The notes beneath the pieces were generated by a model. It was not told the origin of the DNA. It did no database searches and was given only the letters and a program-made list of their open reading frames with translations. Below are positions 6,473 to 56,395 of a stretch of DNA of 64,000 nucleotides, in pieces; the stretch's first letter is position 1; each line of letters starts with the position of its first letter. The stretch is from Verrucomicrobiales bacterium. GTDB taxonomy: Bacteria; Verrucomicrobiota; Verrucomicrobiia; Limisphaerales; UBA11358. The stretch is from assembly GCA_028712475.1 (NCBI GenBank), contig JAQTQB010000001.1:248001-312000 (forward strand), given 5' to 3'. The translations under genes and the position numbers were made by a program.

Positions 6473-6485
6473 CAAAATTTAGCTT

Positions 6486-7430
<945 letters not shown>

Positions 7431-29255: not shown

Positions 29256-30797
29256 TCATGCTGCCATCAGCCTTTTCAACACCGCCTTCAACCAGCCCGG
29301 CGCTCTTCCAATGATTTCGGCTTGCAACGGTTCCCCTAGACCGTGGCGCAGCAACATCACGCCGCCCCAGAGGCCGGACAACAGCACATTCACGGTCAGT
29401 TGCCATGGGGCTGGCAGCCCGCGTGCCAGCCACCAGATTCCAAGGGCGACGGGAACAAGCCGCAGGGTCAAATGCCAGGTGGGGCGATACCAGCCGGCCA
29501 GTTCGCGCCAGCCCAAACCGCAATAACCACACGTCCGCCACAAACCATACGGCAGGGTGAAAGCCAGCGTGCAGACAATCGAAAATATCAGCATGGTCGT
29601 CATCCCGGCCACCCGGTGCGCCAGCAAGTTCAACCCCACAAATGCCAGCCCTTCCACGAGAAAGATGAACCGCAAAAAACCAAATCTCTTGGTCTGGGTC
29701 GCCAGGCCGGTGTGTGGCCGGACAAAAGTGGCCACGAAACAAAGGATGGCCAGCAGCAGATCGTTGACCGGCGGCCAGTGGATTTTGCCGCCCGTCCACA
29801 ACCATACAAAAGGGCCGTTGCACACCGCCAGCAAGGTTCCGGCCACTAGGCTGACACTGGCGCAGAAGCCCGTGATCTCCCTGAACCGCCGGAACAGGCG
29901 TTCGCGTTCGTCGCGAACCATCATTTCTGTCAGCGCCGGGAAGGAAAAATCAAAGATGCGCGAGATCAGCATGATCACCACGGTGTAGGTCCGGGTGCAG
30001 ACACTCCAAATGGCCGCCGTTTCCAGCCCCAGAAACCGGGTCAACAGGATGGTCTGGCTGGCGGAAATGAACTGCCAGCCAATCCCCATCAAAAAACTGT
30101 CGCGCCCGAACGCGAACAATTCCTGAAAGCGCGCCCGGGACATGGCACCCCATTCCCCCGCCTTGGGCAGCAACCCCAGCCATATGCAGCCGGCGGCGTT
30201 GATGACCAGGTTGCCAAGCGTCATCAGGGCCTGTCCGATCAAAAAGCTATAAACGCCCCAGCCCATCGCCAGCCCCGCCCACATGCCGGCCAGATTCACG
30301 ATCAACATCACGGCCGCGCCGTAGCACGAGATGGCCGGCTGCTGGTGTGCCAGCAGGATCGAGCTCAAGACGCGCCCAATAAAGGAAAGGGCCAGCAGCA
30401 CGGACTGGCCGATCATCAGCCACACGAACTGCCGCTGAAAATCCGCCGAGATGTGCAACAGCGGACCGGCCACCACCGAAAGAAACACGCCCGCCAGGAT
30501 GATCAGCACCCCTTGCGCCCCACCCACCAGCACGCTGGTCTTGATGACACTGCCGTAAGCCCCGTTCTGCCGGTCATCCTTGTGGTCAATCAGGAAGCGC
30601 GACACTGAATTGCTCATGCCGAAATCAATCAGCGCGATGTAACCGCCTATCTGCGTGACCAGCGCCCACAGGCCGAATTCCAGCTTGCCCAGGTAATGCA
30701 GCGCCAGCGGGACGCCCGCCAGCGTGTAAAAGATGTTCGCCCCCAGCAACACATAGCCGGACGCCAGCGAGCGGGTGAATTTTTTAAGCCGGGACAT
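29256..30797 (-). CDS. Polysaccharide flippase (MOP/Wzx-like)
   Basis: A 513-residue membrane protein with 12-14 hydrophobic segments. The start FTRSLASGYVLLGANIFYTLAGVPLALHYLG, then LEFGLWALVTQIGGYIALIDFGMSNSVSRF, is typical of polysaccharide flippases. It should move the lipid-linked repeat unit across the membrane for the polymerase at 18174-19733. Specificity is unknown. Confidence 0.9.
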   Translation of the reverse strand: MSRLKKFTRSLASGYVLLGANIFYTLAGVPLALHYLGKLEFGLWALVTQIGGYIALIDFGMSNSVSRFLIDHKDDRQNGAYGSVIKTSVLVGGAQGVLIILAGVFLSVVAGPLLHISADFQRQFVWLMIGQSVLLALSFIGRVLSSILLAHQQPAISCYGAAVMLIVNLAGMWAGLAMGWGVYSFLIGQALMTLGNLVINAAGCIWLGLLPKAGEWGAMSRARFQELFAFGRDSFLMGIGWQFISASQTILLTRFLGLETAAIWSVCTRTYTVVIMLISRIFDFSFPALTEMMVRDERERLFRRFREITGFCASVSLVAGTLLAVCNGPFVWLWTGGKIHWPPVNDLLLAILCFVATFVRPHTGLATQTKRFGFLRFIFLVEGLAFVGLNLLAHRVAGMTTMLIFSIVCTLAFTLPYGLWRTCGYCGLGWRELAGWYRPTWHLTLRLVPVALGIWWLARGLPAPWQLTVNVLLSGLWGGVMLLRHGLGEPLQAEIIGRAPGWLKAVLKRLMAA

Positions 30798-31159: not shown

Positions 31160-32836
31160 ATGGCCCGACCAAACAATTCCCGCAAAATCAAAACCGCCGT
31201 GGTGCTGGCCGCCGGCGCGCCGCCCGCCGCGCTGGGTTCCATCTTCGGGCGCACCTCCTCGGCGATGGTTCCCATCAATGGCCGCCCGACGATCCACTGG
31301 CTGTTGCATTACCTGCACACGCTGGGCGTCACGCGCGTCGTGCTTGGTTTGCGCGCCACCGAGACGCGCCTGCCGCGCTTCGTGCAGCAGGCGTTCGGCA
31401 AGATCCAGGAGATTGTCTGCGTGCCGGTGGCGGAAGACCTCGGCCCCGGCTACACGCTGCTGGAATGTCTCAAGCAGTTGAAAAAAGGCGAATCATGCCT
31501 CGTCGTGCTGGGCGACACGCTTTTTGAATTTTCCCCGGAAACGCTCGCGCAGTTCGGCAACAATTTTGTCCTCACCGGCCCGGTGGAGGATGCAACGCGC
31601 TGGTGCCTGGCGGAAGTGAACCGTTCGCGCACGGTCAAAAATCTGGCGGACAAGCCGGCGAAAAATCCCGACGGCTGGCCGGCGCTGGTGGGCGTTTATC
31701 ATTTCCACGATGCCGGCCCTGCGCGCGACGCGCTGCAAGCCAGGCTTGATTCCGGCGCGCGTTCGCTCCAGTTGCGCCATGCGCTGGAGCCGTATATCGC
31801 GGCGGGAACCTTGTCTGCGTATCCGGCGGGCAAATGGTTCGACTGCGGCAACCTGGATTTCCTGACCAGCTCGCGCCGCCGCCTGTTGCAGGCGCGGAGC
31901 TTCAACACGCTGCACATTGACGAATTGCGCGGCACCATCACCAAGCGCAGCGAGCACGGCGCGAAATTCCTCAACGAGATCAACTATTACCGGCTGCTGC
32001 CGCGCGACCTCGCCACGTTTTTCCCGCGCCTCGTGGATTTCAGCCTCGCCCCCAAAGACCTGTTTGTGACGCTGGAATACTACGGCTACCCGACGCTCTC
32101 GGAGGTCTGGGTGTTCGAGGAGTTTGAAAGCGCGTATTGGGAGGCGGTCTTCAAGACGCTGGGGAAAATTCTCGCGTGCTTTGAAAGCTACTCCGCCGGG
32201 CTGTCGCCGTCAGGCACGTTCGATTTTTATTGGAACAAGACGGTTGACCGGCTCAAAACTTTTGGCGCACAGCACCGCAATTTCGCGCAGTTGATCGCGG
32301 CCGGCACGATTGAGTTGAACGGCAAAAAGCTGGCGGGCTGGCCGAAAATCCAGAAGGCAATCGAGGCGCGCGTCGGAAAAATCGCCGCCAAACCGCGCGG
32401 GCAGATCATCCACGGCGACCTGTGCTTCACGAACATCCTTTACGACCCGGTGTCGCGGCTGTTCAAGTTCATTGATCCGCGCGGCAGCTTCGGTGAATCG
32501 GGCATCTATGGCGACGGCCGTTACGACATCGCCAAGCTTTTACATTCGCTCGACGGCGGCTACGATTTTTTCATCCACGACATGTTCCGGCTGGAACGCG
32601 ACGGCGTAAAATTCCAGCTTCAGCAATTTTTCCCGGCCACGCGCGGCGCGGTGCTGCAAGCCTTCAAGAAAACCTTCGGCGCTCATTACGACTTCAACGA
32701 GGTGCGGACGCTGGAAGGGCTTTTATTTTTGTCCATGTGCCCGTTGCACAAGGATCATCCGGCGCGGCAGTTCGCGATGTTCGCCACCGGCCTGCGGATA
32801 CTGAACGAGATATTGAACGATGAAGATATGCATTGA
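31160..32836 (+). CDS. Nucleotidyltransferase-kinase fusion
   Basis: A 558-residue two-domain protein. The N-terminal half is a sugar-phosphate nucleotidyltransferase fold (TAVVLAAGAPPAALGSIFG, VVLGDTLFEF, KWFDCGNLDF), but the loop that usually reads GxGTRL...PK lacks the canonical Arg and Lys spacing, so activity may be altered. The C-terminal half is an aminoglycoside/choline-kinase fold with the catalytic loop HGDLCFTN (418-425) and metal motif FIDPRG (Asp439). The start at 31160 matches the first beta strand. Its 3' end overlaps the HAD gene by 17 bp. With the next two genes it looks like a pathway that phosphorylates and activates a small molecule for transfer to a glycan. Confidence 0.8.
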   Translation: MARPNNSRKIKTAVVLAAGAPPAALGSIFGRTSSAMVPINGRPTIHWLLHYLHTLGVTRVVLGLRATETRLPRFVQQAFGKIQEIVCVPVAEDLGPGYTLLECLKQLKKGESCLVVLGDTLFEFSPETLAQFGNNFVLTGPVEDATRWCLAEVNRSRTVKNLADKPAKNPDGWPALVGVYHFHDAGPARDALQARLDSGARSLQLRHALEPYIAAGTLSAYPAGKWFDCGNLDFLTSSRRRLLQARSFNTLHIDELRGTITKRSEHGAKFLNEINYYRLLPRDLATFFPRLVDFSLAPKDLFVTLEYYGYPTLSEVWVFEEFESAYWEAVFKTLGKILACFESYSAGLSPSGTFDFYWNKTVDRLKTFGAQHRNFAQLIAAGTIELNGKKLAGWPKIQKAIEARVGKIAAKPRGQIIHGDLCFTNILYDPVSRLFKFIDPRGSFGESGIYGDGRYDIAKLLHSLDGGYDFFIHDMFRLERDGVKFQLQQFFPATRGAVLQAFKKTFGAHYDFNEVRTLEGLLFLSMCPLHKDHPARQFAMFATGLRILNEILNDEDMH

Positions 32837-33218
32837 CGTTGACGGCGTGCTGTGCGAACTGCGCCAGCCCCACCAGGCCTACGCCGAAGTCCGGCCGCTT
32901 CCCGGCGCGGTGGAAAAGATGCAGGCGCTCAAGGTCGCCGGGCATTATCTGATCCTCTGCACGGCGCGGCACATGGCGACGTGCAGCAGCAACACCGGCC
33001 TGGTCGTGGCACGGCAGGGGAAAACCCTGCTGGACTGGCTGGCGGCGCATGAAATCCCCTACGACGAGCTCTGGTTCGGCAAACCGCACGCGGACGTCTA
33101 TCTGGACGACAACGCGCATCGTTTCACCGGCTGGGATGAAATCGCCGGGGATGGCAGCAATCTCCCGGTGAGCCACGAAAAATCGGCGGCGAAAAAAACT
33201 CCGCCATCCGCAAGATGA
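32820..33218 (+). CDS. HAD-superfamily phosphatase of a capsule-type cassette
   Basis: A 132-residue compact HAD protein. Motif I is MKICIDVDGVLCEL (nucleophile Asp6, Asp8), motif II LILCTARH (Thr), and the C-terminal GKPHADVYLDDNA supplies the Lys and acidic residues. There is no cap domain. It overlaps the fusion gene before it by 17 bp and the next gene by 4 bp, so the three are surely one unit. The last 20 residues are low-complexity and basic. Confidence 0.85.
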   Translation: MKICIDVDGVLCELRQPHQAYAEVRPLPGAVEKMQALKVAGHYLILCTARHMATCSSNTGLVVARQGKTLLDWLAAHEIPYDELWFGKPHADVYLDDNAHRFTGWDEIAGDGSNLPVSHEKSAAKKTPPSAR

Positions 33219-33964
33219 ATCCGGGCTGGAAACTGAACATCGTCATGCCGATGGCCGGTCTTGGCAGCCGTTTCCGTCAGGCCGGTTTTGCGGCGCCCAA
33301 GCCGTTGATCGAAGTGCGCGGGCGGCCGATGTATGCGTGGGCCACCGAAAGTTTGCCGCTGGAAAAGTCCACGCGCCTGATCTTCATCCTGCTCGCCACC
33401 CAGCCGGAATTTCCCGGTCTGAAACGCGACATCGAAGTCCGTTACGCGAAACACCAGCCGGTCATCCTGACCGTTCCTGAATTGACCGCCGGCCAGGCCA
33501 TCACCGTTCTGCGCGCAAAAGAATTCATCAATAACGACGAACCGCTCCTGATCCACAACGCGGACACGGCGTTTGACGTTGACCCGGCCTGGGTCGAACG
33601 CGCATGGGCGGAAAAACTGGACGGCGCGCTGCTGGTGTTTCCCTCGCAGGAAAAACGCTGGAGCTTCTCGCGGGAAAATCCGGCGGGCCTGGTCGGGGAA
33701 GTGCGCGAAAAGGAAGTGATTTCACCGTGGGCGACCACCGGCGCTTATTGGTTCCGGCGCGGTGCCGACTTTGTGACCGCCGCCGAAGCCCGCGTCAACA
33801 CGGGCCGCCGCGAGGCCAGTGAATTCTACGTCGGGCCGCTCTACAACGACCTGATCGCGCGCGGTGCGCGGGTGAAAAATTTTCCCATCGAGAAACTGTA
33901 TTGCTTCGGCACGCCGGAGGATCTGGCGGCCACGCTGCGCGACCTGGAGAAGGCCAAAGGTTGA
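33215..33964 (+). CDS. Sugar-phosphate nucleotidyltransferase
   Basis: A 249-residue nucleotidyltransferase with intact motifs: MPMAGLGSRFRQAGFAAPKPLIEVRGRPM with signature Arg and Lys, LLIHNADTAFDVD for the metal, and KLYCFGTPEDL near the end. It probably activates the product of the upstream kinase/phosphatase as a nucleotide derivative. Its stop codon lies within the first unit of a heptamer repeat (33960-33987). Confidence 0.87.
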   Translation: MNPGWKLNIVMPMAGLGSRFRQAGFAAPKPLIEVRGRPMYAWATESLPLEKSTRLIFILLATQPEFPGLKRDIEVRYAKHQPVILTVPELTAGQAITVLRAKEFINNDEPLLIHNADTAFDVDPAWVERAWAEKLDGALLVFPSQEKRWSFSRENPAGLVGEVREKEVISPWATTGAYWFRRGADFVTAAEARVNTGRREASEFYVGPLYNDLIARGARVKNFPIEKLYCFGTPEDLAATLRDLEKAKG

Positions 33965-34250: not shown

Positions 34251-35453
34251 TCAGCCCGCATCCAGGCCGGCCTTCGCCAGGAGTTTTTTAACTTCGTTCA
34301 GATCCACCGTCGTCATCATCATGTGGTCGGACGGGAAAAGCTGCCAGTGATAATCGAGCTTGTTCACGTCGCAGATCCACTCGACCCAGCTGTCCACCCA
34401 GTTGCTGGCCATGAACGTGATGACCTTGCAGCCGGGCCGGCTCCAGATGCCATTGGTGAAGCCGCTCCCGAGGACGCCCGCGAACGCCTCGGCATTGGCG
34501 AACAATTCAATCTCCTGCGCGAAGGTGAGCGTCTCGGTGTCAATGATGGCCCAGCCCAATTTTTTGAAAAACTCGTTTACCTCGGCCTCGTTTTTAATGC
34601 CGCGCGCCCTGCCCTTGCGCTGGATGATGAACCGCTTCGGGCCGTGGTGGGATTTGTCGGCCAGCGGCAGGAAGGCGGAGCGCAGCCAGTTCACGCCGTA
34701 AGGGCTGTAACATGAAATCATCGCGGTGGGCGCGCTGAAATAATAATTTTCCACGATGATGTGCGGCTCCGGCGTGCAGCGCACGCGGTCAAGCAGGCCG
34801 AGCAGCGCGAGCGTCTCCTTTTGATAGGCCGCCAGTTTTGCCGGCACCAGGATTTTGGTGTCCGCCGGAAATTCCTTGAGCAACGCCAGGCGCGGCAGCG
34901 CGTCCAAAATCCAGTGCGAGAAGGTCGGCACGCCATCGTTCGGCACCCAGCGCGAAACCAGACTTGTCCAGTTTCCCGCCAACCTGACCGGCTGGGGCAG
35001 CCGCCAATAGCGCCACGCTGGATCGCCTTCCAGACAATAATCCCCATAGACGGATTCACGGCAGATGCGTTTCTGATCATCGAGCAGGGCCAGGGTGGAC
35101 GCGACAAGGCGTGCGTTCCGGTGCTGGCTCCAAAATATCGGCCACGGCTGGAAGGCGTGCTGTTGCAGGCCGGTCTTGACCAGGAGCGATTCATCTGTCG
35201 TTTTTGGCGCGCCCTGGTCGGTCAGCACAACCCGGTTGGGCCGGCGATTTTCGTGCAAGAGTGATTGATAAATCGAGAAGGATCCCTTGGGCGGGCCGAA
35301 CCGCAGGGTTTTCGCCGGCGCAAGAACCCGCAGCAGATTCACGAACAACATCGGGATGCTTTCCGTCAGCAGCCGCCGGATTGCTGTCAACGGACGGTGC
35401 AGCGCCGGCCAGCGCCGCGTGCGCATCGCCAGTTTGTGATAGAAAGCGGGCAT
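34251..35453 (-). CDS. Glycosyltransferase, GT61 family (DUF563)
   Basis: A 400-residue protein with the DUF563 core: VPTFSHWILDALPRLALLKEF, KRFIIQRKGRARGIKNEAEV, LTFAQEIELFANAEAFAGVLGSGFTNGIW. GT61 enzymes transfer xylose, GlcNAc or related sugars; the UDP-xylose synthase-like enzyme in this region makes xylose a natural guess, but only a guess. Start at MPAFYHKLAM (35453) is preferred over a longer frame to 35543. Confidence 0.87.
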   Translation of the reverse strand: MPAFYHKLAMRTRRWPALHRPLTAIRRLLTESIPMLFVNLLRVLAPAKTLRFGPPKGSFSIYQSLLHENRRPNRVVLTDQGAPKTTDESLLVKTGLQQHAFQPWPIFWSQHRNARLVASTLALLDDQKRICRESVYGDYCLEGDPAWRYWRLPQPVRLAGNWTSLVSRWVPNDGVPTFSHWILDALPRLALLKEFPADTKILVPAKLAAYQKETLALLGLLDRVRCTPEPHIIVENYYFSAPTAMISCYSPYGVNWLRSAFLPLADKSHHGPKRFIIQRKGRARGIKNEAEVNEFFKKLGWAIIDTETLTFAQEIELFANAEAFAGVLGSGFTNGIWSRPGCKVITFMASNWVDSWVEWICDVNKLDYHWQLFPSDHMMMTTVDLNEVKKLLAKAGLDAG

Positions 35454-35552
35454 GTCAAAAAAACCGCGCGCAACGAAGCAGGCGCGGGCATGATGGATTT
35501 TCAAGCGCGGGCTGCGGCCCGGCAAGGTTGGCGTTATGCGCAAGGATATCGG

Positions 35553-36358: not shown

Positions 36359-36470
36359 TTCTCCCTCTCCTCCCCCGAGGGAGGAGAGGGTCGGGGTGAG
36401 GAGGCATCAATGTTTTCAGATCAAATCCCCTCGCCCAAGCCCTCGCCCCGTTTGGGCGGGGAGAGGAAGT
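36359..36470. repeat. Two GGAGAGGG-type palindromic repeats
   Basis: 36359-36410 is CTCCCTCTCCTCCCCCGAG... and 36424-36470 is CCCTCGCCCAAGCCC...GGGCGGGGAGAGG. Each is an imperfect palindrome. The same family occurs at about 34076, 39130, 39198, 42500, 42562 and 61566, often as facing pairs. Confidence 0.8.
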
Positions 36471-39129: not shown

Positions 39130-39243
39130 TTCTCCCTCTCCTCCCCAAAAGGAGGAGAGGGCCGGGGTGAGGAGGCCGGCTCTTCTGAAAATAAAATCCC
39201 CTCTCCCCAACCCCCTCCCCGTTCGAGCGGGGAGAGGGAGAAG
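39130..39243. repeat. Facing pair of GGAGAGGG-type palindromes
   Basis: 39130-39175 and 39198-39243 are two copies of the palindrome family described at 36359. The spacer 39071-39336 holds nothing else recognisable. Confidence 0.8.
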
Positions 39244-42499: not shown

Positions 42500-42612
42500 C
42501 TCCCTCGCCCCGCCCAGGCGGGGAGAGGGCTGGGGAGAGGGGATTTTAGTTTCAGACAATCGGCCTCCTCACCCCGGCCCTCTCCTCCTTTTGGGGAGGA
42601 GAGGGAGCAGCG
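42500..42612. repeat. Facing pair of GGAGAGGG-type palindromes
   Basis: Two family members at about 42500-42545 and 42562-42612, between divergent genes. They fill most of the promoter region of both. Confidence 0.8.
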
Positions 42613-46408: not shown

Positions 46409-47038
46409 CTACCAGTCCTTGACCGGTTTCCGGGGATCGCGCGGCTTTCCGTCCGGCTTGAGTTGAAGAACCTGTTCGTCGCCCTTTTGCGCGTCCAGCA
46501 ACCGCTTCGCCTCCTCCGGCGTCATCTGGCCCGGCGCCATCGGCTGACCTTCCGCATTTTTATCTTCGGGCTTCTCGCCATCTTTTTTTTCAGGTGAAGA
46601 CTTTTGCTGATCCTTCTGCTTTTGCTGCTCGTCTTTCTTCTGATCCGCCTTTTTTTGATCTTCCTGTTTCTGTTCGTCCTGCTTCTTTTGCTCCTGCGAT
46701 TTCTGCTGCTGCGATTGATCCTGCTGCTTTTGGTTTTGCTGATCCTTTTGATCCTGCTGTTGTTGCTGCTGGTCTTTTTGATCTTGCTGCTGCTGATTCT
46801 GTTGCTGCTGTTGCTGGCTCTGTTGTTTGAGCAGTTCATCCAGCTTTTTCAATTTTTCATCGTCGGGATAAAGTTTCAGCCCCATGTCCACCGCCGCCCT
46901 GGCCTGGGCGACGTTGTTGGAAATATAGAACTGCGCGCCGCTGTGAAAAAAATCATCGGCGGGCGCGAGCTGGGCGCAAGCTTTCTGCGCCGCACACAGC
47001 AGCAGACTAAGGCTGATGAGGAGTGGCAATCGCATCAA
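46409..47038 (-). CDS. Exported Q/K-rich low-complexity protein of the bat operon
   Basis: A 209-residue protein with a signal peptide (LLISLSLLLCAAQKACAQ). A short TPR-like helix pair follows (FHSGAQFYISNNVAQARAAVDMGLKLYPDD), then about 90 residues made almost only of Gln, Lys, Asp and Glu, and a C-terminal MTPEEAKRLLDAQKGDEQVL helix. Similar proteins close Bat operons in related phyla. Its 5' end overlaps batB/C by 32 bp. The repetitive codons make this gene prone to expansion and contraction. Confidence 0.82.
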   Translation of the reverse strand: MMRLPLLISLSLLLCAAQKACAQLAPADDFFHSGAQFYISNNVAQARAAVDMGLKLYPDDEKLKKLDELLKQQSQQQQQQNQQQQDQKDQQQQQQDQKDQQNQKQQDQSQQQKSQEQKKQDEQKQEDQKKADQKKDEQQKQKDQQKSSPEKKDGEKPEDKNAEGQPMAPGQMTPEEAKRLLDAQKGDEQVLQLKPDGKPRDPRKPVKDW

Positions 47039-48692
47039 TGTCCTTCAGTTTTTTGGTGAACTCTTCAAATTGTCTGGCCGCGATTTTATTTTGCATCAGC
47101 GCGTCCATGATTTCCACGGCGCGATGGTAATTCCGCTGCCGCACCGCCGCATCGGCATCCGCCCGCGCCCGGCGCATCGCTTCACGGAACGCCTTGATCT
47201 GCTCCACGCCGTTTTTGACAAACGCGAGATTAAACGCCGCATCCACATCGTTGGTGTTGAGCGCGGCGGCGCGCTCATAACTTTTGATGGCCGTCTCCCA
47301 CGTTTCTTGCAGGCCGTCCAGATCTTTGGCTGCCGCGCCCATGCGATACTGCGTGTTGCCCAGATTGTAGTAAGCCTGCTGCTGCAATTTCAAATCCGGT
47401 GCCGTCGTCACCAAAGTGAACGCCTTCGCCGCCTCGTCAAAATTGGTGCCACGATACGCCGCCGCGCCGGCGTTGAAAATCAGGCGCAAGTCATTCGTCT
47501 GCACCTGCGCCATCCGCTCGTATTCCGCCAGCGCGTTCGTGTAGTTGCCAGCCTTGTAATCACGCAGCGCGTCGGCGGGCGAAGCCAGCGCGACGCTGGG
47601 AACTAAAAGCAGCAAGAATATCATGGCCGCCGCCGGCTTTGGAACGCCGGTTTCCGACCCGGCGCTTTTCGATTGAGACTTCAATTCACGCCGGGTCGGA
47701 GACCGGCGCTCCGGCAAAAACATCTCCGCCAGCAACACCAGAGCCGCCGCCGCCAGCGGCCAATGAAACTGTTCGTGATAGCGCCGCACCAGTTTTTCCT
47801 TCCCCTCCGACTTTGGCAGCGGCTCCAGCCCGCGTTCGTAAAGTGTGTTGATGGTGTCCGCGCCGCGCAACGGCAGGTAAAACCCGCCCGCCGCCCCGGA
47901 GATCTGCTGGAGCAGCGGTTCATTCAAGTGCGATTTCACCACGTTGCCCTGCCCGTCGCGGACATAATCGGAATTTCCGCTCGCATCTGTCACGCGGATC
48001 AAATCGCCCGCCGCCGTGCCGATGCCGATGGTGAAAATTTTGAGCCCCGCATCCGCCGCTTTCTTCGCCGCCGCCAGTGCGCCCTCGTCGTTGTCCTCGC
48101 CGTCGGTAAACACGACCAAAACTTTGAAATGATCCTTCTCCTTGAACGCCGTCAATGCCGTGTCAATCGCCGCCGCCAGCGCCGTGCCGCCCTGCGGAAT
48201 GGAGTTCACATCCAGCGCCTGCAAGCTCTGCTGGAACGCCGTGTTGTCAATCGTCAGCGGACAGGCCAGAAACGCATCGCCCGCAAACGCCACCAGTCCC
48301 ATGCGATCCGTGCCCGCTTTTTGCATCAGCTCCAGTGCGGCAAGCTTCGCGCGCGCCAGGCGGTCCGGTGCGATGTCCGTTGCGAGCATGGATTTGGATG
48401 TGTCCACCGCCACCACGATGTCCAGCCCACGCTGCTCAACTTCCTGCAAATCAAAGCCATGCTGCGGCCGCGCCAGGGTGATGACCAAAAAGGTCACTGC
48501 TAAAATTAACCATGCCAGCCGCATTTTCCGCCGGAATGGAGAAATCCCGACCGTCAACTGCGACAGCAGCCGCGCCTCGACGAATTGCGTCAGCAATTTC
48601 TGTCGCGCCCGCTCTGCCCACCAGAAAAACAGCCAGAGCGCCGGCGGAATCACCAGCAGAAGCCAAAGAATTTGTGGATGCTCGAACCTCAT
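47007..48692 (-). CDS. VWA-TPR fusion, BatB plus BatC-like
   Basis: A 561-residue membrane protein. Two membrane segments near the N-terminus are followed by a von Willebrand A domain with an intact MIDAS (DTSKS at 97-101, FTDGEDNDE later) and a third segment (WPLAAAALVLLAEMFL). Then comes a second hydrophobic signal-like segment (AAAMIFLLLLVPSVALASPADA) and four TPR-like repeats. In other Bat operons the two halves are separate genes, BatB and BatC. The linker between them (about residues 327-351) is encoded by a palindromic repeat. Bat proteins are linked with stress and oxygen tolerance. Confidence 0.9.
   Translation of the reverse strand: MRFEHPQILWLLLVIPPALWLFFWWAERARQKLLTQFVEARLLSQLTVGISPFRRKMRLAWLILAVTFLVITLARPQHGFDLQEVEQRGLDIVVAVDTSKSMLATDIAPDRLARAKLAALELMQKAGTDRMGLVAFAGDAFLACPLTIDNTAFQQSLQALDVNSIPQGGTALAAAIDTALTAFKEKDHFKVLVVFTDGEDNDEGALAAAKKAADAGLKIFTIGIGTAAGDLIRVTDASGNSDYVRDGQGNVVKSHLNEPLLQQISGAAGGFYLPLRGADTINTLYERGLEPLPKSEGKEKLVRRYHEQFHWPLAAAALVLLAEMFLPERRSPTRRELKSQSKSAGSETGVPKPAAAMIFLLLLVPSVALASPADALRDYKAGNYTNALAEYERMAQVQTNDLRLIFNAGAAAYRGTNFDEAAKAFTLVTTAPDLKLQQQAYYNLGNTQYRMGAAAKDLDGLQETWETAIKSYERAAALNTNDVDAAFNLAFVKNGVEQIKAFREAMRRARADADAAVRQRNYHRAVEIMDALMQNKIAARQFEEFTKKLKDIDAIATPHQP
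47641..47713. repeat. Palindromic repeat inside the batB/C coding sequence
   Basis: The left arm ACGCCGGTTTCCGACCCGGC and the right arm GCCGGGTCGGAGACCGGCGC are near-perfect reverse complements about 22 bases apart. It is read in frame as a basic linker (ERRSPTRRELKSQSKSAGSE...). Confidence 0.85.
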
Positions 48693-48698
48693 TTATGA

Positions 48699-49141
<443 letters not shown>

Positions 49142-49143
49142 AT

Positions 49144-50151
49144 TCATGGCAGCCTCCGAAACACAGTTTGCCCCAGCACCAGCTCGACGAGCAGCAAGGC
49201 CAGCCCGCCCAGGACGAACCACGGGAACAGCTCCTTGAACTCCGTGTATTTGTTGATCGTCACCTCGGTCTTTTCCAGCTTGTCAATTTCCGCGTAGATC
49301 TGCCGGAACCGTTCGGCATTGTCCGCGCGATAGTATTTTCCGCCGGTAGCGTCCGCGATTTTCTGCAACGTCTCTTCATCCACGTCCACCGGCACATTTT
49401 GATAGACCATCTGGCCGGTGTAGGGATTCCGGCCGACCGGCATCGGCGCAGTGCCTTGTTCCCCGATGCCAATCGTATAAACCTTGATGCCCAGTGCGCG
49501 CGCCGCATCGGCGGCCATGAGCGGCTGGATTTTGCCCGCATTATTTTGTCCGTCTGTCATCAGGATCACGATTTTACTTTTGGACTTCAAATCGCGCAAC
49601 CGGTTCACCGCCGTCCCTAGCGCGTCACCAATTGCGGTCTGATTTTGGTTGATGGACCCGATTTCCAGCCGGTCCAGGTTCTCGTGCAAAAATTCATGGT
49701 CCAGCGTCAGCGGCGTGGCGATGTAAGCCTGCGAAGCGAACACCACCAGCCCGATGCGGTCGCCCGGTCGCTCATCAATGAACTTCTTCAACACCGAGCG
49801 CGCCATGTTGAACCGGTTCACGCGCGCGCCTCTGACCACAAAATCCTCCGACAACATGCTGCCCGAAAGATCGAACGCCACCGCGATGTCCACGCCGCTC
49901 GCCTTCACCGTCGTCCCGCCGCCAATCGTCAAACGCGGTTGCGCCAGCGCAACGATGAAAATGGCCAGGACCAGCCAGCGCAACGCCGCCAACAATCCGC
50001 CCGCCCGTGAACGCCGTGCCCGCGTCAAACCTTCCACCAGCTTCACCGACGAATACAGAAACGCCGGCGACCGGCCGCGTCTGCCTTTCAGCCACGCCAT
50101 CAGCGGCAGCAGCAAAAGCAGCAGCAGAAAATATGGATGGGCAAAGGTCAT
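49144..50151 (-). CDS. batA: VWA-domain membrane protein BatA
   Basis: A 335-residue protein with two N-terminal and one C-terminal membrane segments around a von Willebrand A domain. The MIDAS is intact (DLSGS at 94-98, MTDGQNNAG later). It lies directly after the DUF4381 gene with a 4-bp overlap, and the order DUF58-DUF4381-batA is typical of Bat operons. The start codon is part of the last unit of a heptamer run. The stop codon (TGA in an ATGA context) touches the S23-bearing element. Confidence 0.92.
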   Translation of the reverse strand: MTFAHPYFLLLLLLLPLMAWLKGRRGRSPAFLYSSVKLVEGLTRARRSRAGGLLAALRWLVLAIFIVALAQPRLTIGGGTTVKASGVDIAVAFDLSGSMLSEDFVVRGARVNRFNMARSVLKKFIDERPGDRIGLVVFASQAYIATPLTLDHEFLHENLDRLEIGSINQNQTAIGDALGTAVNRLRDLKSKSKIVILMTDGQNNAGKIQPLMAADAARALGIKVYTIGIGEQGTAPMPVGRNPYTGQMVYQNVPVDVDEETLQKIADATGGKYYRADNAERFRQIYAEIDKLEKTEVTINKYTEFKELFPWFVLGGLALLLVELVLGQTVFRRLP

Positions 50152-50714
50152 CTGGGGTCTGGCGTCTGGGGTCTGGCGTCTGGGCTTTCGATGTGCGGCT
50201 CGGTTTCTTCGACCAGTTTCACCGCCGAGCAGTGCAGTTCGCGCAATTCCGTTTCGCGCGGCTCATACTTGGCGAATTTCACGAGGTCGCAGCTCTCCAG
50301 AAAATCGCCGAGGCTTTCTTTTTGTTCCGTCGCCAGCAGATCCGTGCCGCTCAACTCGCGCAGAAATTCCTCCGTCGTCCGCTCCGGCGCGTGAAAATTG
50401 AAACGTTCCTCCAGATAAGTCCGTGCCGTGTCGGAAACTGCGATGACAAATGGTTTCGGCTGCGCGATGAGCGCGAGCGCTTCCTCCAATTTTTGCTTCG
50501 CGCGGACATGCGCCGGCACCGGCGGCACGAAAGCCGCCTGCAAACGTCGTTTCTGCCACCAGCGCCACAGGAAAAAGGCGGCAACCGCCAAAACAATGAT
50601 GGCAAGTGCCGCTGGCACCCAGGCCCAGCCGTTCGGAATTTCAATCGGCGGCTTGATGTCGCGGATGTCGTTGGCGACCGGAACGGCGGCTTGCGCTGTT
50701 GTATTCGTAATCAT
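50148..50714 (-). CDS. DUF4381-like membrane protein of the bat operon
   Basis: A 188-residue protein with one membrane segment (WVPAALAIIVLAVAAFFLWRWW, about residues 31-52) and a cytoplasmic helical domain (RAKQKLEEALALI, SDTARTYLEERFNFHAPERTTEEFL). This matches the DUF4381 proteins between DUF58 and BatA. It overlaps both neighbours by 4 bp. Its last 12 residues are encoded by heptamer repeats and are probably not part of the native fold. Confidence 0.85.
   Translation of the reverse strand: MITNTTAQAAVPVANDIRDIKPPIEIPNGWAWVPAALAIIVLAVAAFFLWRWWQKRRLQAAFVPPVPAHVRAKQKLEEALALIAQPKPFVIAVSDTARTYLEERFNFHAPERTTEEFLRELSGTDLLATEQKESLGDFLESCDLVKFAKYEPRETELRELHCSAVKLVEETEPHIESPDARPQTPDPR
50149..50183 (-). 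repeat. Heptamer run at the DUF4381/batA junction (unit CCAGACS)
   Basis: On the minus strand: CCAGACG, CCAGACC, CCAGACG, CCAGACC, then CCAGATG, where ATG is the batA start. The run is also coding: it gives DUF4381 its C-terminal SPDARPQTPDPR. No inverted partner was found nearby. Confidence 0.8.
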
Positions 50715-51619
50715 CCGCGCAGCCTCCGCTTTTCCCGCGTCTCGAAAAATTTGCCCAGAGTCGCGCCGTAGGCTTCGTTCGTGCGCAGTTGAATCGAATC
50801 AATTCCCGACGAACGGAACTGTTTGGCCAGATCGGCGATCTGTTTCTGTTGGCGCAACGCAAACGCATCGCGGCTGCTCGCGCTGCCGGTATTTACCTCG
50901 AGAATCTCGCCGGTCTCCGCGTCCTCCAACGTCAGGCGGCCCAGCGCGGGCAGTTCCAGTTCGTGCTTGTCGGTGATCTGCACCGCGACCACATCGTGCT
51001 TGCGATTCAACATGCGCAGCCGGGTTTGCGTCAGCTTGGGCAGCACGCCCGCCGAATCGGGTGAAATGAAATCCGACACGACCACCGTGATCGCCCGGTG
51101 CGCCGTGACCCGCGCCATGAATTCCAACGCGTCCACCAGATTTGTTCCCCGCTTCTTTGGTTCAAAAAATAAAACTTCCCGGATGACCCGCAGCACATGC
51201 TTGCGGCCTTTGCGCGGCGGGATGAATTTCTCCACTTCGTCGCTGAAGAGGATGAGGCCGACCTTGTCGTTGTTGCGGATGGCGGAAAAGGCGAGCACCG
51301 AAGCAATTTCCGCCGCGAGTTCGCGTTTGGATTGCCCGCGCGATCCGAACAGGCCCGACCCGCTCACGTCCACGACGAGCATGAGCGTGAGTTCGCGTTC
51401 CTCGACGAACTTCTTGATGAACGGATGATTCATCCGCGCGGTGACGTTCCAGTCAATCGCGCGCACGTCATCGCCGGGCTGGTATTCGCGCACCTCGTCG
51501 AAGTTCATGCCCTGGCCCTTGAAGACGGAATGATACTGGCCCGCGAGCGTTTCGGTCACGATGCGGTTGGTGCGCAGCTCGATCTGCCGGATTTTTTTGA
51601 GAATTTCTCGCGGTATCAT
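50711..51619 (-). CDS. DUF58-domain protein of the bat operon
   Basis: A 302-residue protein with the DUF58 core GMNFDEVREYQPGDDVRAIDWNVTARM and a VWA-like fold (LTLMLVVDVSGSGLFGS). Such proteins act with MoxR ATPases. Start at MIPREILKKIRQIELRT (51619). The first 27 codons have a second copy at 52468-52548, upstream of the toxin-antitoxin cassette. The two copies differ at four third-codon positions within codons 2-5, all silent, and are otherwise identical. The functional gene is thus the downstream copy. Confidence 0.93.
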   Translation of the reverse strand: MIPREILKKIRQIELRTNRIVTETLAGQYHSVFKGQGMNFDEVREYQPGDDVRAIDWNVTARMNHPFIKKFVEERELTLMLVVDVSGSGLFGSRGQSKRELAAEIASVLAFSAIRNNDKVGLILFSDEVEKFIPPRKGRKHVLRVIREVLFFEPKKRGTNLVDALEFMARVTAHRAITVVVSDFISPDSAGVLPKLTQTRLRMLNRKHDVVAVQITDKHELELPALGRLTLEDAETGEILEVNTGSASSRDAFALRQQKQIADLAKQFRSSGIDSIQLRTNEAYGATLGKFFETREKRRLRG

Positions 51620-51658
51620 GCGCTTGCAAAATGTCTTTGGCCAAACCAGTTTAATTCC

Positions 51659-51922
51659 ATGAGTGCGACCAAAATTCTCGAAGAATTGCGCCGGATGCCT
51701 GAAAACGAACGGCGCGAAACCGTCCAGCAAATCTTGGATGAATTTACCGGATTCGACGACGAACTGACGCCAGAACAAATCGCTGAACTCGAACGCCGAG
51801 CCGAAGAGCTGCGGCAGCACCCCGAACGTGGAATTCCAGCAGAACAAGTTTTTGCTGAAATTGAAGAACGGCTCGCCGCGCGGCGGAAAAACCCTGCTTG
51901 CGCGAACAAACCAAAGGAGTAA
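51659..51922 (+). CDS. Addiction-module antitoxin-like protein
   Basis: An 87-residue acidic helical protein of the 'putative addiction module component' type (MSATKILEELRRMPENERRE ... LTPEQIAELERRAEELRQHPERGIPAEQVFAEIEERL). It is a paralogue of the next gene and lies 9 bp before it. It is antisense to the bat operon. Confidence 0.75.
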   Translation: MSATKILEELRRMPENERRETVQQILDEFTGFDDELTPEQIAELERRAEELRQHPERGIPAEQVFAEIEERLAARRKNPACANKPKE

Positions 51923-51931
51923 ATTGCCGCC

Positions 51932-52162
51932 ATGAGTGCGACCGAAGTTTTTGCCGCTGCCAAGGCGCTGCCGCTCGATAAACGCATCAAGCTGGCGCAG
52001 GATTTGTGGGACGACATCGCCGGAAACGGCTTCGATCCTGACCTGACACCGGAGCAGGCCGCCGAACTGGATCGCCGTCTGGCTGAATTCGAGAAAAACC
52101 CGCGCCGCGGAATTCCTTTGGAGCAGGTCAAAGCTGAAATGCGGGAACGTTTCGGCTGGTGA
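51932..52162 (+). CDS. Addiction-module antitoxin
   Basis: A 76-residue protein ([29 protein letters not shown] ... [16 protein letters not shown]) of the same family as the preceding one. It overlaps the RelE/ParE-like toxin gene by 4 bp, the usual type II arrangement. Likely to bind and neutralise that toxin and to repress the operon. Confidence 0.87.
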
Positions 52163-52464
52163 TGAATCTGGACTCCCTCTTCGAGCCGGAAGCCAAGGCC
52201 GAATTTTTCGAGGCCATCGCCTGGTATGAAAATGAATCTCCCGGCTTGGGGAAGGAATTTGCCTCCGAAGTTCTTGGTGCGGTGGACCGGGCGCTGCTTC
52301 AGCCGGAACTCTTTCGCAAAGTGCGTGGCCGCGCTCGCAAAGTCCGATTGAAACGCTTCAAGGCATACAGCATCTACTTCGCAATCAAGGATGACGTTTT
52401 CTCTGTGGTTTCGGTTTTTCACGGCGCGCGGAATCCAGCGGAACTGCGGCGGCGGCTGAAATGA
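52159..52464 (+). CDS. RelE/ParE-family toxin
   Basis: A 101-residue basic protein with the family pattern [24 protein letters not shown] and the C-terminal strands [28 protein letters not shown]. Either an mRNA endonuclease or a gyrase inhibitor; the sequence does not decide. It ends 3 bp before the duplicated DUF58 5' end. Confidence 0.88.
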
Positions 52465-52467
52465 ACA

Positions 52468-52548
52468 GCCCGCGAGCGTTTCGGTCACGATGCGGTTGGT
52501 GCGCAGCTCGATCTGCCGGATTTTTTTGAGAATCTCGCGGGGGATCAT
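52468..52548 (-). pseudogene. Duplicated 5' end of the DUF58 gene
   Basis: 81 bp matching 51539-51619 except for four bases. It encodes the ATG and the first 27 residues (MIPREILKKIRQIELRT...) and then runs into the toxin-antitoxin cassette. Its ATG overlaps the ankyrin gene's TGA in an ATGA, so this copy marks the place where DUF58 originally started. Confidence 0.92.
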
Positions 52549-53573
52549 GGGCGCTTTGTTAAAGTTATTTTGGTAATCTTGAAATGCTCAATCACGCTTG
52601 TTGAAGAATGTCGCTCGGCAAAGTGAATCAAGTCTGTTCCATCCGGTAACGCCTTTGTCACATTAGCCCCGGCGGCAATCAAGCACCCCACAACCTCTGC
52701 TCGATCATGCGCTACGGCAAAATGAATTGCCCTCCAACCAGCCGCTTGTTTGTGCTTTGAAATAATTTCCGCTTCCAAATTTGCTCCTAACTTCAAAAGG
52801 CTTTGTATTACATCAAGCGGTGCTGCTGCCGCAGCAGGCATCAAGGGTGTTATTCCTTCGCGGTCTGATTTGTTGACGTCTGGCTGATGCCGCAAGATTT
52901 CGCGGACTATCTCCAACAAAGGTGTAGCTTGACGGGCCAAATCTTTCATAGCGGGCAATGCTGCGGCGTGTGCCGGCACGCCGACCGCGTTCTTGTATGC
53001 AAAAAGCGCCCGAGCCAGAAGACTCTCGCCGGAACTAGCCGTCCCTTCAACGTCAGCACCATTTTTCAGCAGCAAAGAAAAAGTCTTTGATACGGCTCGA
53101 TCAATACACGCTTCTAGAGCGGACGGCACACCCTTGCGGCTTTCGTTGGGATTCACTCCGAAGCGCAGCAGTAGCTCAAAGCAAGAGAATTTCCTTTCCC
53201 ATACGGCGAACGTTAGCAGCGACCTGCCCATCGGTTTGTAATTTGGACTTGCCCCCGCCGCGAGTAACACTTCCGCGATGTCACAGTGTCCGAGTCGGAT
53301 AGCGTGCACCAAGGGTGGCTCGCCAAGAAAATTATCTTTGTTCCGATTTGCTTTGTTTGCAGCGTTCGGATTTTCGCCACCGGCCAGCAATCCTCGCACT
53401 CGTGTTAAATCGCCCTTCAGGACGGCTTGCACAAGCGGTGGCTCGGTCTTGGTGCTGGCGATCTCAACAATACCCGCTTTGAGCAGATTTGTTTTAATAG
53501 CATTAACAGCAGCAGTCGTGGTGAGCGCTCTTTTTTTCATTGGTGTATGATGCATTTTGTTCGCTTGCATCAT
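52545..53573 (-). CDS. Ankyrin-repeat protein
   Basis: A 342-residue protein with about seven ankyrin repeats (EPPLVHAIRLGHCDIAEVLLAAGASPN, GITPLMPAAAAAPLDVIQSLLKLGANLEAE, GWRAIHFAVAHDRAEVVGCLIAAGANV). No signal peptide. Starts at the ATG pair 53573/53570, 13 bp after the duplicated moxR stop. Its stop overlaps the duplicated DUF58 start. These tight junctions show that it was part of the moxR-DUF58 operon before the two toxin-antitoxin cassettes arrived. Its AT-rich codon use differs from the bat genes. Confidence 0.88.
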   Translation of the reverse strand: MMQANKMHHTPMKKRALTTTAAVNAIKTNLLKAGIVEIASTKTEPPLVQAVLKGDLTRVRGLLAGGENPNAANKANRNKDNFLGEPPLVHAIRLGHCDIAEVLLAAGASPNYKPMGRSLLTFAVWERKFSCFELLLRFGVNPNESRKGVPSALEACIDRAVSKTFSLLLKNGADVEGTASSGESLLARALFAYKNAVGVPAHAAALPAMKDLARQATPLLEIVREILRHQPDVNKSDREGITPLMPAAAAAPLDVIQSLLKLGANLEAEIISKHKQAAGWRAIHFAVAHDRAEVVGCLIAAGANVTKALPDGTDLIHFAERHSSTSVIEHFKITKITLTKRP

Positions 53574-53586
53574 TCGATATTTTCGC

Positions 53587-53658
53587 TCACGGCACAGGCA
53601 GTTCATCAAAGATTTTCTGGATGACCGTTTCGCTGGTTTTTTCCCCGGCCCCGGCTTC
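53587..53658 (-). pseudogene. Duplicated 3' end of moxR
   Basis: 72 bp matching 54320-54391 at about 68 positions. It encodes KTSETVIQKIFDELPVP and the stop codon. Two differences are silent; two non-silent ones are at the upstream edge. It sits on the other side of the DUF433/DUF5615 cassette from the intact gene. Confidence 0.92.
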
Positions 53659-53697
53659 CCGCTTGCGGCGGGAAACGTCCGGTGTCATCTTGTCGTC

Positions 53698-53937
53698 ATG
53701 TCGAACGCACAATTGCTCTCGCGCATAACGATGGACGCGGCCATCTGCCACGGCAAGCCGTGCATCCGCGGCCTGCGCTACCCGGTGGAATGGCTGCTGG
53801 AATTGTTGAGCGGCGACATGACGGAGCCGCAAATCCTGGCGGACTATCCCGATCTCGAAGCGGCTGACCTGCGCGCCGCCATCGCCTACGCCGCGCGTTT
53901 GAGCCGCATCAAAAGCATCGAACCGGTGGCGGCATGA
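53698..53937 (+). CDS. DUF433 antitoxin
   Basis: A 79-residue protein with the family pattern ITMDAAICHGKPCIRGLRYPVEWLLELL, AGxS-like spacing and EILADYPDLEAADLRAAIAYA-like end (here QILADYPDLEAADLRAAIA). It overlaps the DUF5615 gene by 4 bp, the standard VapBC-like pair. Confidence 0.92.
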   Translation: MSNAQLLSRITMDAAICHGKPCIRGLRYPVEWLLELLSGDMTEPQILADYPDLEAADLRAAIAYAARLSRIKSIEPVAA

Positions 53938-54287
53938 AATTTCTCGTGGACGCGCAACTGCCGCGCCGGCTGGCGCGGGAACTGGCCGCATCCGGCCACG
54001 ACACGGTTCACACTTTGGATTTACCCGCCGCAAACCGCACGCCGGATCAGGAAATTGTCGCGCTGGCGATGCGGGAAAATCGTATCGTGGTGACGAAGGA
54101 CAATGATTTTGTAATTTCATTTCTTTTGCATGGCACGCCGCCGAAATTGTTTTTGATTTCGACCGGCAACATTTCAAACGACCAACTTTCCAGACTTCTC
54201 GCATCAAATTTAACAGTTTTGGAAAATGCTTTCAGCAACTATGACTTCGTGGAATTGAGCGCATTGACGATTACAATTCACGCCTAA
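53934..54287 (+). CDS. DUF5615 PIN-like toxin
   Basis: A 117-residue PIN-like nuclease with the acidic residues of the family: FLVDAQLPRRLARELAASGHD, PDQEIVALAMRENRIVVTKDNDF. Partner of the preceding DUF433 antitoxin. It ends 1 bp before a heptamer run and 32 bp before moxR. Confidence 0.92.
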   Translation: MKFLVDAQLPRRLARELAASGHDTVHTLDLPAANRTPDQEIVALAMRENRIVVTKDNDFVISFLLHGTPPKLFLISTGNISNDQLSRLLASNLTVLENAFSNYDFVELSALTITIHA

Positions 54288-54288
54288 G

Positions 54289-54316
54289 TTCATTCTTCAT
54301 TCTTAATTCTGCCTTC
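54289..54316 (+). repeat. Heptamer run at the edge of the DUF433/DUF5615 cassette
   Basis: Units TTCATTC, TTCATTC, TTAATTC, TGCCTTC between the toxin stop and the moxR stop. No inverted partner was recognised at the other cassette edge. Confidence 0.65.
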
Positions 54317-54319
54317 GTT

Positions 54320-55309
54320 TCACGGCACGGGCAGTTCATCAAAAATTTTCTGGATGACCGTTTCGCTGGTTTTTTCCTCGGCCTCGGCTTCGTAGGTGAT
54401 GGCCACGCGGTGGCGCAACACGTCCATGCCGATGCTCTTCACGTCCTGCGGTGTGACGTAGCCCCGGCCTTTCAGGAACGCGTAGGCCTTGGCCGCCAGC
54501 GTGAGCGCGATGGTCGCGCGCGGCGACGCGCCGAGCTGGATGAAATCCTTCACCGCGATCTTGTAATGATCGGGATCGCGCGTGGCGCAGACGAGGTCCA
54601 CGATGTAATCCTTCACCTTGTCGTCCACGTAAATGTCATTGATGATTTCGCGCGCCTTGAGGATTTGTTGCGGCGTGACGACGGCGCTGGCGGTAGGCGT
54701 GCCGGACGTTTTTGCCATCACTTCGAGAATCTGTCGCTCTTCGGCGCGCGACGGATAGCCAATCTTGAGCTTGAGCATGAAGCGGTCAACCTGCGCCTCG
54801 GGCAGCGGATACGTGCCTTCCTGCTCGATGGGATTTTGCGTGGCGAGCACGAGGAACGGTTCGTCGAGCTTGTAGGTCTGGTCGCCGATGGTGACCTGCT
54901 TTTCCTGCATGGCTTCGAGCAACGCGCTTTGCACCTTGGCGGGCGCACGGTTGATTTCGTCAGCGAGAATCAGATTCGCAAAGACCGGGCCTTTGCGCGT
55001 GGTGAAGCCGCCGGACTGCGGATTGTAGATCTGCGTGCCGATGACGTCGGCGGGCAGCATATCCGGCGTGAATTGCAGGCGCGAGAATTTGACGTGCATG
55101 CAGTTCGCCAGTGATTTCACCGCGAGCGTCTTGGCTAGGCCGGGCACGCCTTCGAGCAGGACGTGGCCGTTGGCCAGCAATCCGATGACCAACCGCTCGG
55201 TCAAGTAATGCTGGCCGACGATGACTTTGCCAAGTTCGTTAAACAGCGGGTGCGTAAAGGCGCTCGCTTCCTTGACCGCTTCGTTGATGGCGTTGATTCC
55301 TGTATTCAT
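54320..55309 (-). CDS. MoxR-family AAA+ ATPase
   Basis: A 329-residue ATPase. Walker A is GVPGLAKT (54-61) and Walker B LILADEIN (113-120); sensor region ATQNPIEQEGTYPLPEAQVDRF and the sensor-2 helix are present. MoxR proteins act as chaperones with VWA-domain proteins, here BatA and BatB/C. The last 24 codons have a second copy at 53587-53658. Confidence 0.95.
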   Translation of the reverse strand: MNTGINAINEAVKEASAFTHPLFNELGKVIVGQHYLTERLVIGLLANGHVLLEGVPGLAKTLAVKSLANCMHVKFSRLQFTPDMLPADVIGTQIYNPQSGGFTTRKGPVFANLILADEINRAPAKVQSALLEAMQEKQVTIGDQTYKLDEPFLVLATQNPIEQEGTYPLPEAQVDRFMLKLKIGYPSRAEERQILEVMAKTSGTPTASAVVTPQQILKAREIINDIYVDDKVKDYIVDLVCATRDPDHYKIAVKDFIQLGASPRATIALTLAAKAYAFLKGRGYVTPQDVKSIGMDVLRHRVAITYEAEAEEKTSETVIQKIFDELPVP

Positions 55310-55384
55310 GTTTTCTTAATCATCTTTCCTGTGGACGACATTCTGACAATCAGTTTGCCGTCGTGTTCAACCAAAATTGCAGCC

Positions 55385-55410
55385 GGTGGGGCAAGCGTCC
55401 TCGCGAGCCG
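55385..55410 (+). repeat. Half of a REP-like element (nadE type)
   Basis: GGTGGGGCAAGCGTCCTCGC... matches the first half of the palindrome found inside nadE. It lies in the 133-bp gap between batE-like and moxR. Confidence 0.65.
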
Positions 55411-55442
55411 GTCTTTGCAGACGGCCATCACCAACCAAAAAA

Positions 55443-56213: not shown

Positions 56214-56390
56214 GGTTGAACCGCGGGTTTCAGGACAAAGACAAGACAAGCCCCGGCAGGGGCGACAGAAAACCGTCGCCGGAATATTTCTTGCGCCCCG
56301 TCCGGGGCTTTCAATTTCTCCCGCCACAACCCACGGCTGGCACCGTGGGCCATTATCTTTCGCGCCTCCGGCGCTGAAAAAGTAAAAACC
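56214..56390. repeat. Composite palindromic repeat upstream of batE
   Basis: From 56211 an inverted repeat CCCACGGTTGAACCGCGGG is followed at about 56250-56310 by the CCGGCAGGGGCGACAG ... CGCCCCGTCCGGGGCT element also seen at 16680-16760, then CACGGCTGGCACCGTGG. No gene. Confidence 0.7.
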
Positions 56391-56395
56391 GCTTT

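Follow-up and report, generated by a model that had tools for sequence, protein, structure and literature searches.

A kinase, phosphatase and nucleotidyltransferase cassette that may make a nucleotide-activated furanose in a Verrucomicrobiales surface-polysaccharide locus

We analysed a stretch of 64,000 nucleotides from a Verrucomicrobiales bacterium (assembly GCA_028712475.1, contig JAQTQB010000001.1, positions 248,001 to 312,000; hereafter the window), in which three overlapping genes encode a fusion of a nucleotidyltransferase (NTase) domain with a kinase domain, a capless HAD phosphatase and a separate NTase. Most likely, with a probability that we place at about 0.55, the kinase, the phosphatase and the separate NTase would together make a nucleoside diphosphate (NDP)-fructofuranose from fructose-6-phosphate for a surface polysaccharide. 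In the proposed pathway, the kinase domain would phosphorylate the anomeric hydroxyl (C2 of fructose-6-phosphate, or C1 if the substrate were arabinose-5-phosphate) to give a bisphosphate, the HAD phosphatase would strip the terminal phosphate, and the separate NTase would couple the anomeric phosphate to a nucleoside triphosphate, yielding the NDP-furanose; the first two steps could also occur in the opposite order. The gene kfoE of Escherichia coli K4, the K11 and K52 capsule loci and the genes that neighbour related phage cassettes point to a furanose phosphate as the substrate. Considering that the furanose form has the D-arabino configuration in both arabinose-5-phosphate and fructose-6-phosphate, one kinase family could act on either anomeric hydroxyl. 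The organism should have fructose-6-phosphate, as any cell, and arabinose-5-phosphate through a KpsF/GutQ-type isomerase, which its 3.4 Mb genome carries (313 bits).

The three genes lie on the plus strand and overlap one another, as an earlier note on this DNA had reported and as the list of open reading frames (ORFs) confirmed. The gene of the fusion protein (558 aa, 31160..32836), a member of the family of E. coli K4 KfoE and phage RB69 ORF53_52c, overlaps that of the EcbF/BcbF-like phosphatase (132 aa, 32820..33218) by 17 bases, and the latter shares 4 bases (ATGA) with the gene of the separate NTase, NTase3 (249 aa, 33215..33964). This is not a chance overlap: records from Verrucomicrobiota, Bacteroidota and Pseudomonadota, and also a cyanophage, hold a HAD phosphatase and a separate NTase next to a kinase, either fused or stand-alone. 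The proposal of a three-gene activation cassette was supported. The earlier note had advised a search for this gene order in other phyla, in their capsule loci; the gene set recurs widely, but the order varies, being fusion-HAD-NTase in the window, HAD-fusion-NTase in K4, NTase-HAD-fusion in the K52-type locus and NTase-kinase-HAD in cyanophage S-SKS1. The closest kin of the window fusion were found in loci L003 (73% identity), L152 (55%), L156 (41%) and L004 (34%).

The N-terminal NTase-fold domain of the fusion (residues 1-242, 31160..31885) matched the nucleotidyltransferase family PF12804 of Pfam at 3.7e-7. In the model of the full protein (mean predicted local distance difference test score, pLDDT, 91.7) these 242 residues adopted an RmlA/GalU-type NTase fold, and their highest-scoring fold match was 5i1f (Z 26.4, root mean square deviation (rmsd) 2.8, 242 aligned residues). 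The motifs LGDTL (117-121) and WFDCGN (226-231) were kept. The signature loop AAGAPPAALGSIFG, which had been singled out as unusual, was real: the Arg and Lys of the GxGxR...PK signature are replaced by Ala and Ser, and replacement is common to the four nearest aligned relatives of the window, with Ala, Ser, Glu and Gln at the Arg position of L003, L140, L013 and L004 and Ser, Cys, Val and Ser, respectively, at the Lys position. The loss of both catalytic residues supported the suggestion that this domain probably binds but does not react, and we consider it probably non-catalytic. It would be kept perhaps as a scaffold or as an NDP-sugar sensor, in the way that GMPPA acts as a sensor for GMPPB. 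The GMPPA/GMPPB pair resembles the window in having a pyrophosphorylase-fold partner beside a live enzyme, and its entry 7d72 matched the model (Z 24.0, rmsd 2.5, 235 aligned); unlike in that pair, the dead copy of the window is fused to a kinase, and its sensing role is a prediction.

It is evident from the sequences that the loss of the two residues is coupled to the separate NTase. Relatives were found in capsule or O-antigen loci, both plasmid-borne and chromosomal, as well as in viral contigs and in phages (T4-like, enterococcal and cyanobacterial). Among 48 aligned long ORFs, near-copies included, both Arg and Lys were present in 27, neither in 21 (two of which, in L092 and L144, have no N-terminal domain) and just one in none. 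The neighbourhood was scored by the presence of a separate NTase of the window's kind within 2.5 kb of the kinase ORF. The set held 98 kinase ORFs in 97 loci, and 77 after 21 redundant ones were dropped; 25 loci had been excluded beforehand, comprising duplicates, shorter copies and loci fetched otherwise (L104, L108, L109, L157-L160). The E. coli loci L161-L169, found with queries that included the separate NTase, and the locus of Shewanella phage Thanatos stand outside these counts. Where a HAD gene also lay within 2.5 kb, a separate NTase accompanied all 14 fusions that had lost the Arg and Lys (13/13 without L092), none of the 9 intact fusions and 19 of the 20 stand-alone kinases. When the HAD condition was lifted, the separate NTase was found beside 19/21 lost fusions (18/19 without L092 and L154, which have no N-terminal domain, the exception being L068), 0/22 intact fusions (2/22 within 5 kb, in L054 and L093) and 24/34 stand-alone kinases. 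Fisher's test gave p = 1.2e-6 with the HAD condition and 2.6e-10 without it, both values being inflated by relatedness. On the kinase tree the lost state takes three changes, and the branches starred there force at least two; relatedness therefore accounts for only part of the pattern. Read plainly, the counts suggest that each cassette would need a single functional NTase, the fused domain decaying, or being missing, wherever a separate NTase is present, and so the fused copy of the window is probably a sensor or scaffold.

Two further observations concern these fusions. The viral contig L054 has two of them (292-1926 and 5001-6512): in one the Arg/Lys loop is intact, and in the other, which has a separate NTase next to it, the loop is lost. 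NTase-kinase fusions of a second sort were seen in L141-L143 and L080; their loop is intact, neither a HAD gene nor a separate NTase was found in the stretches read, and they perhaps serve a choline-type activation.

The C-terminal domain (residues 243-558, 31886..32836) is the predicted kinase for the anomeric hydroxyl of a furanose phosphate. In the scan of the whole protein it gave no Pfam match at 0.001, and when it was cut out it matched APH at 0.053 (13.7 bits, under the Pfam gathering score of 23.2); seven of nine aligned kinase domains, that of the window included, matched APH at 0.1 or better. Modelled alone (pLDDT 92.0), the domain took an APH/choline-kinase-type fold. Among the 50 fold matches listed, PsiK, glucosamine kinase, LicA, methylthioribose kinase, APH and others were found at Z 15.9-18.6, with LicA (4r77) at Z 18.0 (rmsd 3.2, 237 aligned), and the best Foldseek match was APH(3') (E 1.5e-6). 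Residues H418, G419, D420, N425 and D439 were invariant across two kinase alignments, so that the HGDxxxxN and D motifs are kept, and K262 was invariant in the larger one (32 rows, the Mosigvirus protein left out). When PDB sequences were searched with the kinase profile, no clear relative emerged, the best match (0.0099) being a protein kinase, and kin were recognised through the fold search only. The description of this domain as choline-kinase-like holds for the fold and fails for the substrate.

The phosphatase, predicted to remove the terminal phosphate, has all of the HAD motifs DVDG, CTARH, FGKPH and YLDDN, and it matched the EcbF/BcbF family TIGR01689 with 58.7 bits, under the NCBIfam cut-off of 162. 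A literature search on the capsule composition of Pasteurella multocida type B, the source of bcbF, gave nothing. The separate NTase, predicted to make the NDP-furanose, is canonical, as had been claimed, its GxGxR...PK signature being intact (MAGLGSR...APK). The best PDB kin of these two proteins were 1xpj and 4evw, respectively, which we take to be Vibrio cholerae proteins encoded near the lipopolysaccharide-core cluster. That core is presumably fructose-bearing, and a literature search gave no confirmation of it.

The connection with fructose comes from the E. coli capsule loci. In the passages of PMC7429809 that deal with K4, the polymer has β-fructofuranose on C3 of glucuronic acid, and kfoE was deleted to prevent fructosylation. 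The kfoE deletion primers given there match, without mismatch, the locus L164, in which a chondroitin synthase (that of entry 2z86, 1455 bits) is also encoded. One primer falls where the HAD gene ends, and its partner, in reverse orientation, falls where the separate NTase begins. As the deletion primers flank the fusion, kfoE is the NTase-kinase fusion. The kinship of KfoE with the window fusion is based on tblastn with the latter (1.6e-32), the family profile and the tree, and an intact copy is in L166. By a reading of the N-termini by eye, the fused NTase of K4 is without the Arg and Lys, and its separate NTase is intact. Region 2 of the K4 kfo cluster is therefore like the window in its three adjacent proteins, its dead fused NTase and its live separate NTase; it is unlike the window in the gene order, in the protein KfoD, which K4 has and the window does not, and in having a known product, fructofuranose. 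The review PMC10609508 files kfoE under fructosylation. It was also noted that in L164 (9270-11615) kfoE is interrupted by IS1, intact copies being present in other strains, and because of this interruption the L164 strain probably makes unfructosylated chondroitin.

Plasmid CP103510.1 carries the cassette (L012), and it is also present in a record named O15:H18 strain ST69. We take K11 to be a fructose-bearing capsule and K52 presumably has acylated fructofuranose. According to PMC10433991 the K11 capsule locus lies on CP103510.1, and O15:H18 ST69 isolates were typed as K52 in PMC13340294, so that the second record is K52 by genotype. The K52-type cassette was found in 37 of 5426 genomes, and its backbone gene in 37 as well (46 including partial matches).

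Phage relatives connect the family with the supply of sugar phosphates. In a Mosigvirus the fusion and the HAD gene lie side by side with a SIS isomerase. RB69 and NP belong to this genus and have DNA that bears arabinose (PMC6024577, PMC13390438), and it is proposed that related modules make the arabinose donor of T4-like phages. This module is like the window in that the fusion adjoins the HAD gene, but it differs from it in that the Arg and Lys are kept, there is no separate NTase, an isomerase is present and the role is DNA modification. A homologue of TAL_FSA (transaldolase/fructose-6-phosphate aldolase) was located near the cassette in 17 of the 20 loci with a stand-alone kinase and a HAD gene, all except L017, L041 and L082. 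In cyanophage S-SKS1 a gene of this kind (269 aa, L011:7291-8100) lies by the kinase, HAD and NTase genes, and further viral loci are likewise arranged; this suggests that the FSA-like gene in cyanophage-like contigs is a dedicated supply of sugar phosphate and not part of general carbon metabolism. The S-SKS1 proteins resemble those of the window (kinase 35%, HAD 50% and NTase 26% identical), the difference being that its kinase is without the fused NTase domain and that a TAL_FSA gene follows.

Phage Thanatos fits the NTase rule, because the loop of its fusion TH1_060 is kept, a HAD gene is next door and TH1_063 is unrelated to the separate NTase in a hidden Markov model search. In the Thanatos study, TH1_060 and TH1_063 were both assayed with xylose-1-phosphate; a product was obtained for TH1_063, which was reported as a uridine diphosphate-xylose pyrophosphorylase. 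In Vibrio phage F86 the loop is intact, and neither an NTase match nor a HAD match was found among the three genes tested.

A transferase would be needed for the product, and candidates were found in part of the loci. The 829-aa acyltransferase-like protein of the K52-type locus (L167:5654-8143) is related to the 562-aa protein of K11 (L012:5372-7060) at 1.1e-72, and KfoD of K4 (L166:3415-4848) is linked to both through a protein of L016 (2.4e-9, then 9.8e-10). A profile of four KfoD-like proteins also matched L167, L169 and L015, and it had members, some of them weak, in 15 of the 20 viral loci with stand-alone kinases (not in L032, L040, L045, L053 and L082). It matched none in the O20, O78, L165, L168, L014 and Legionella loci or in the nearest kin of the window. 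In the loci that have them, the KfoD-like proteins are candidate furanosyltransferases. WavE-like proteins adjoin several other cassettes. In the window, the GT61 glycosyltransferase that adjoins the cassette (34251..35543, minus strand) is related to the GT61 protein of the O20 locus (1.8e-12) and is a weak candidate for the transferase of the cassette product. As a side observation, the K52-type KfoD-like protein seems to be fused to an acyltransferase, judging from its annotation and a weak hexapeptide match.

Several observations weigh against NDP-fructofuranose as the product. The window fusion shares only about 25% identity with its K4 and K52-type counterparts and falls into a separate clade (4 rows, 99/97, the K4/K52 clade having 15 rows, 99/98), so that its sugar may differ from that of K4. 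No KfoD-like protein (E 1e-3, ORFs of at least 100 aa) and no WavE-like protein was found in the window. KfoE matches no Pfam kinase family, nor any glycosyltransferase, of the 9 intact fusions accompanied by a HAD gene just 1 has a SIS gene nearby, and in the literature examined no enzyme of the family was found that had been assayed with the predicted substrates. The O-antigen loci of E. coli O78 (L162) and O20/O137 (L161) carry the whole cassette; the O78 repeat presumably holds only N-acetylglucosamine and mannose, with no fructose, and we take O20 to contain ribofuranose and not fructose. Fructofuranose is acid-labile, and any such residue in O78 and O20 may perhaps have been lost in work-up. 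Ribofuranose was also considered as a product and was rejected, its origin being phosphoribosyl pyrophosphate. Work titled on 'the biosynthetic origin of ribofuranose' is cited in PMC13171606. The fructose of K11 is affected too, in that the legend in PMC10433991 only lists fructose among the sugars of group 3. Finally, by the account of its locus in PMC7901785, Campylobacter jejuni HS1 has fructofuranose in its capsule, and no such gene set appears there, 1 of the 11 genes being labelled 'unknown'.

The same three-step logic could act on another furanose, either D-arabinofuranose derived from arabinose-5-phosphate or a heptulose or pentulose, which we regard as unlikely although worth keeping in mind. 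It would agree with the role proposed for a related fusion in phage DNA arabinosylation, with the KpsF/GutQ-type isomerase of the genome and with the position of the window clade apart from that of K4 and K52; on the other hand, a Pfam scan of 30 window ORFs showed no SIS isomerase, and the fusions of the arabinose phages keep the Arg/Lys loop that the window fusion has lost. It seems improbable that the fusion is itself a fructosyltransferase, as KfoE is named where it is mentioned in PMC7925653 and PMC7429809, and that the phosphatase and the NTase do something else. The deletion of kfoE stops K4 fructosylation, but losing an activation step would give the same phenotype as losing the transferase. 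In the model, the window fusion combines a pyrophosphorylase fold with an APH-type kinase whose kinase residues are kept, a Pfam glycosyltransferase domain is absent from both this protein and KfoE, and the K4, K11 and K52-type loci hold the related KfoD-like proteins.

It is very doubtful that a small alcohol, be it choline, ethanolamine, glycerol or glycerate, is activated here in the manner of LicA/LicC, even though the kinase model matches LicA, a match that lies within 1 Z of those to amino-sugar, methylthioribose and aminoglycoside kinases. The conserved phosphatase has no place in the LicA/LicC pathway, the K4 copy, kfoE, is needed for fructose, and sugar-phosphate genes adjoin the phage cassettes; the choline, ethanolamine and glycerate that the earlier note had listed for assay thus became less likely. 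An ordinary aldohexose, or a heptose made as by HddA-GmhB-HddC, is hardly probable either. The latter pathway has the same succession of kinase, phosphatase and NTase and needs a phosphoheptose isomerase, and the fused domain weakly matches HddC (3e-9, 36.8 bits, below the cut-off of 300), while HAD relatives occur in cyanophage sugar clusters. The kinase of that pathway is, however, of another fold, the modelled kinase of the window being APH-like and not GHMP; no phosphoheptose isomerase was found among the 30 window ORFs scanned, the rest of the genome not having been searched; and for ordinary hexose-1-phosphates an anomeric kinase with a phosphatase would be superfluous. The expectation that the product is probably not an ordinary aldohexose was supported.

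The synthesis of NDP-fructofuranose for a surface polysaccharide can also be viewed in the context of the window. The cassette is surrounded by glycosyltransferases, a flippase-like protein (Wzx-like, 29256..30797, minus strand), methyltransferases, epimerases and a Wzy_C protein, and these neighbours make a surface-polysaccharide locus likely. The suggestion that the cassette product decorates a surface glycan fits with this glycosyltransferase-rich setting. The cassette is accessory, since the fusion was present in 0/9 other genomes of the same genus in a sample of 384 genomes of the class. The family profile at 1e-25 matched 10 of these 384, the source genome counted; G045 and G715 hold, like the window, a fusion of the lost type, three others hold fusions whose loop is intact and which have no HAD gene in reach, and the remainder are kinase-only or partial. 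In a sample of the phylum, 2 of 288 genomes matched at 1e-15, again counting the source genome.

Outside the cassette, a dispersed inverted repeat based on CTCACCCCGGCCCTCTCC occurs three times, at 36382-36448, 39153-39219 and 42521-42586. The two half-sites of each copy start 47-48 bases apart, as in hairpins like those of repetitive extragenic palindromic elements, and six half-sites were found at up to 2 mismatches against 0.02 expected. A Bat-type set lies on the minus strand at 47007-58180 and includes a MoxR ATPase, a DUF58 protein, two VWA/BatA proteins, TPR and ankyrin proteins and BatD.

In a search of the open-access literature no such NDP-furanose route was found in print. Cassettes of this kind have been sequenced many times, with a role that is unassigned or, for kfoE, probably misassigned. 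We propose tentatively that a family of anomeric furanose-phosphate kinases, acting together with a HAD phosphatase and a single live NTase, would provide the missing NDP-furanose route for fructofuranose in capsules and O-antigens and for arabinose in phage DNA; KfoE would then be the kinase and not the K4 fructosyltransferase, the KfoD-like proteins would be the fructofuranosyltransferases, and the fused NTase, having lost both residues together upon the arrival of a separate NTase in the cassette, may have become an NDP-sugar sensor that controls the kinase. If this is true, kfoE, the gene deleted for fructose-free chondroitin, is misnamed, and the fructose of capsules and the arabinose of phages would be tied to one enzyme set, each step of which would be open to a plain assay.

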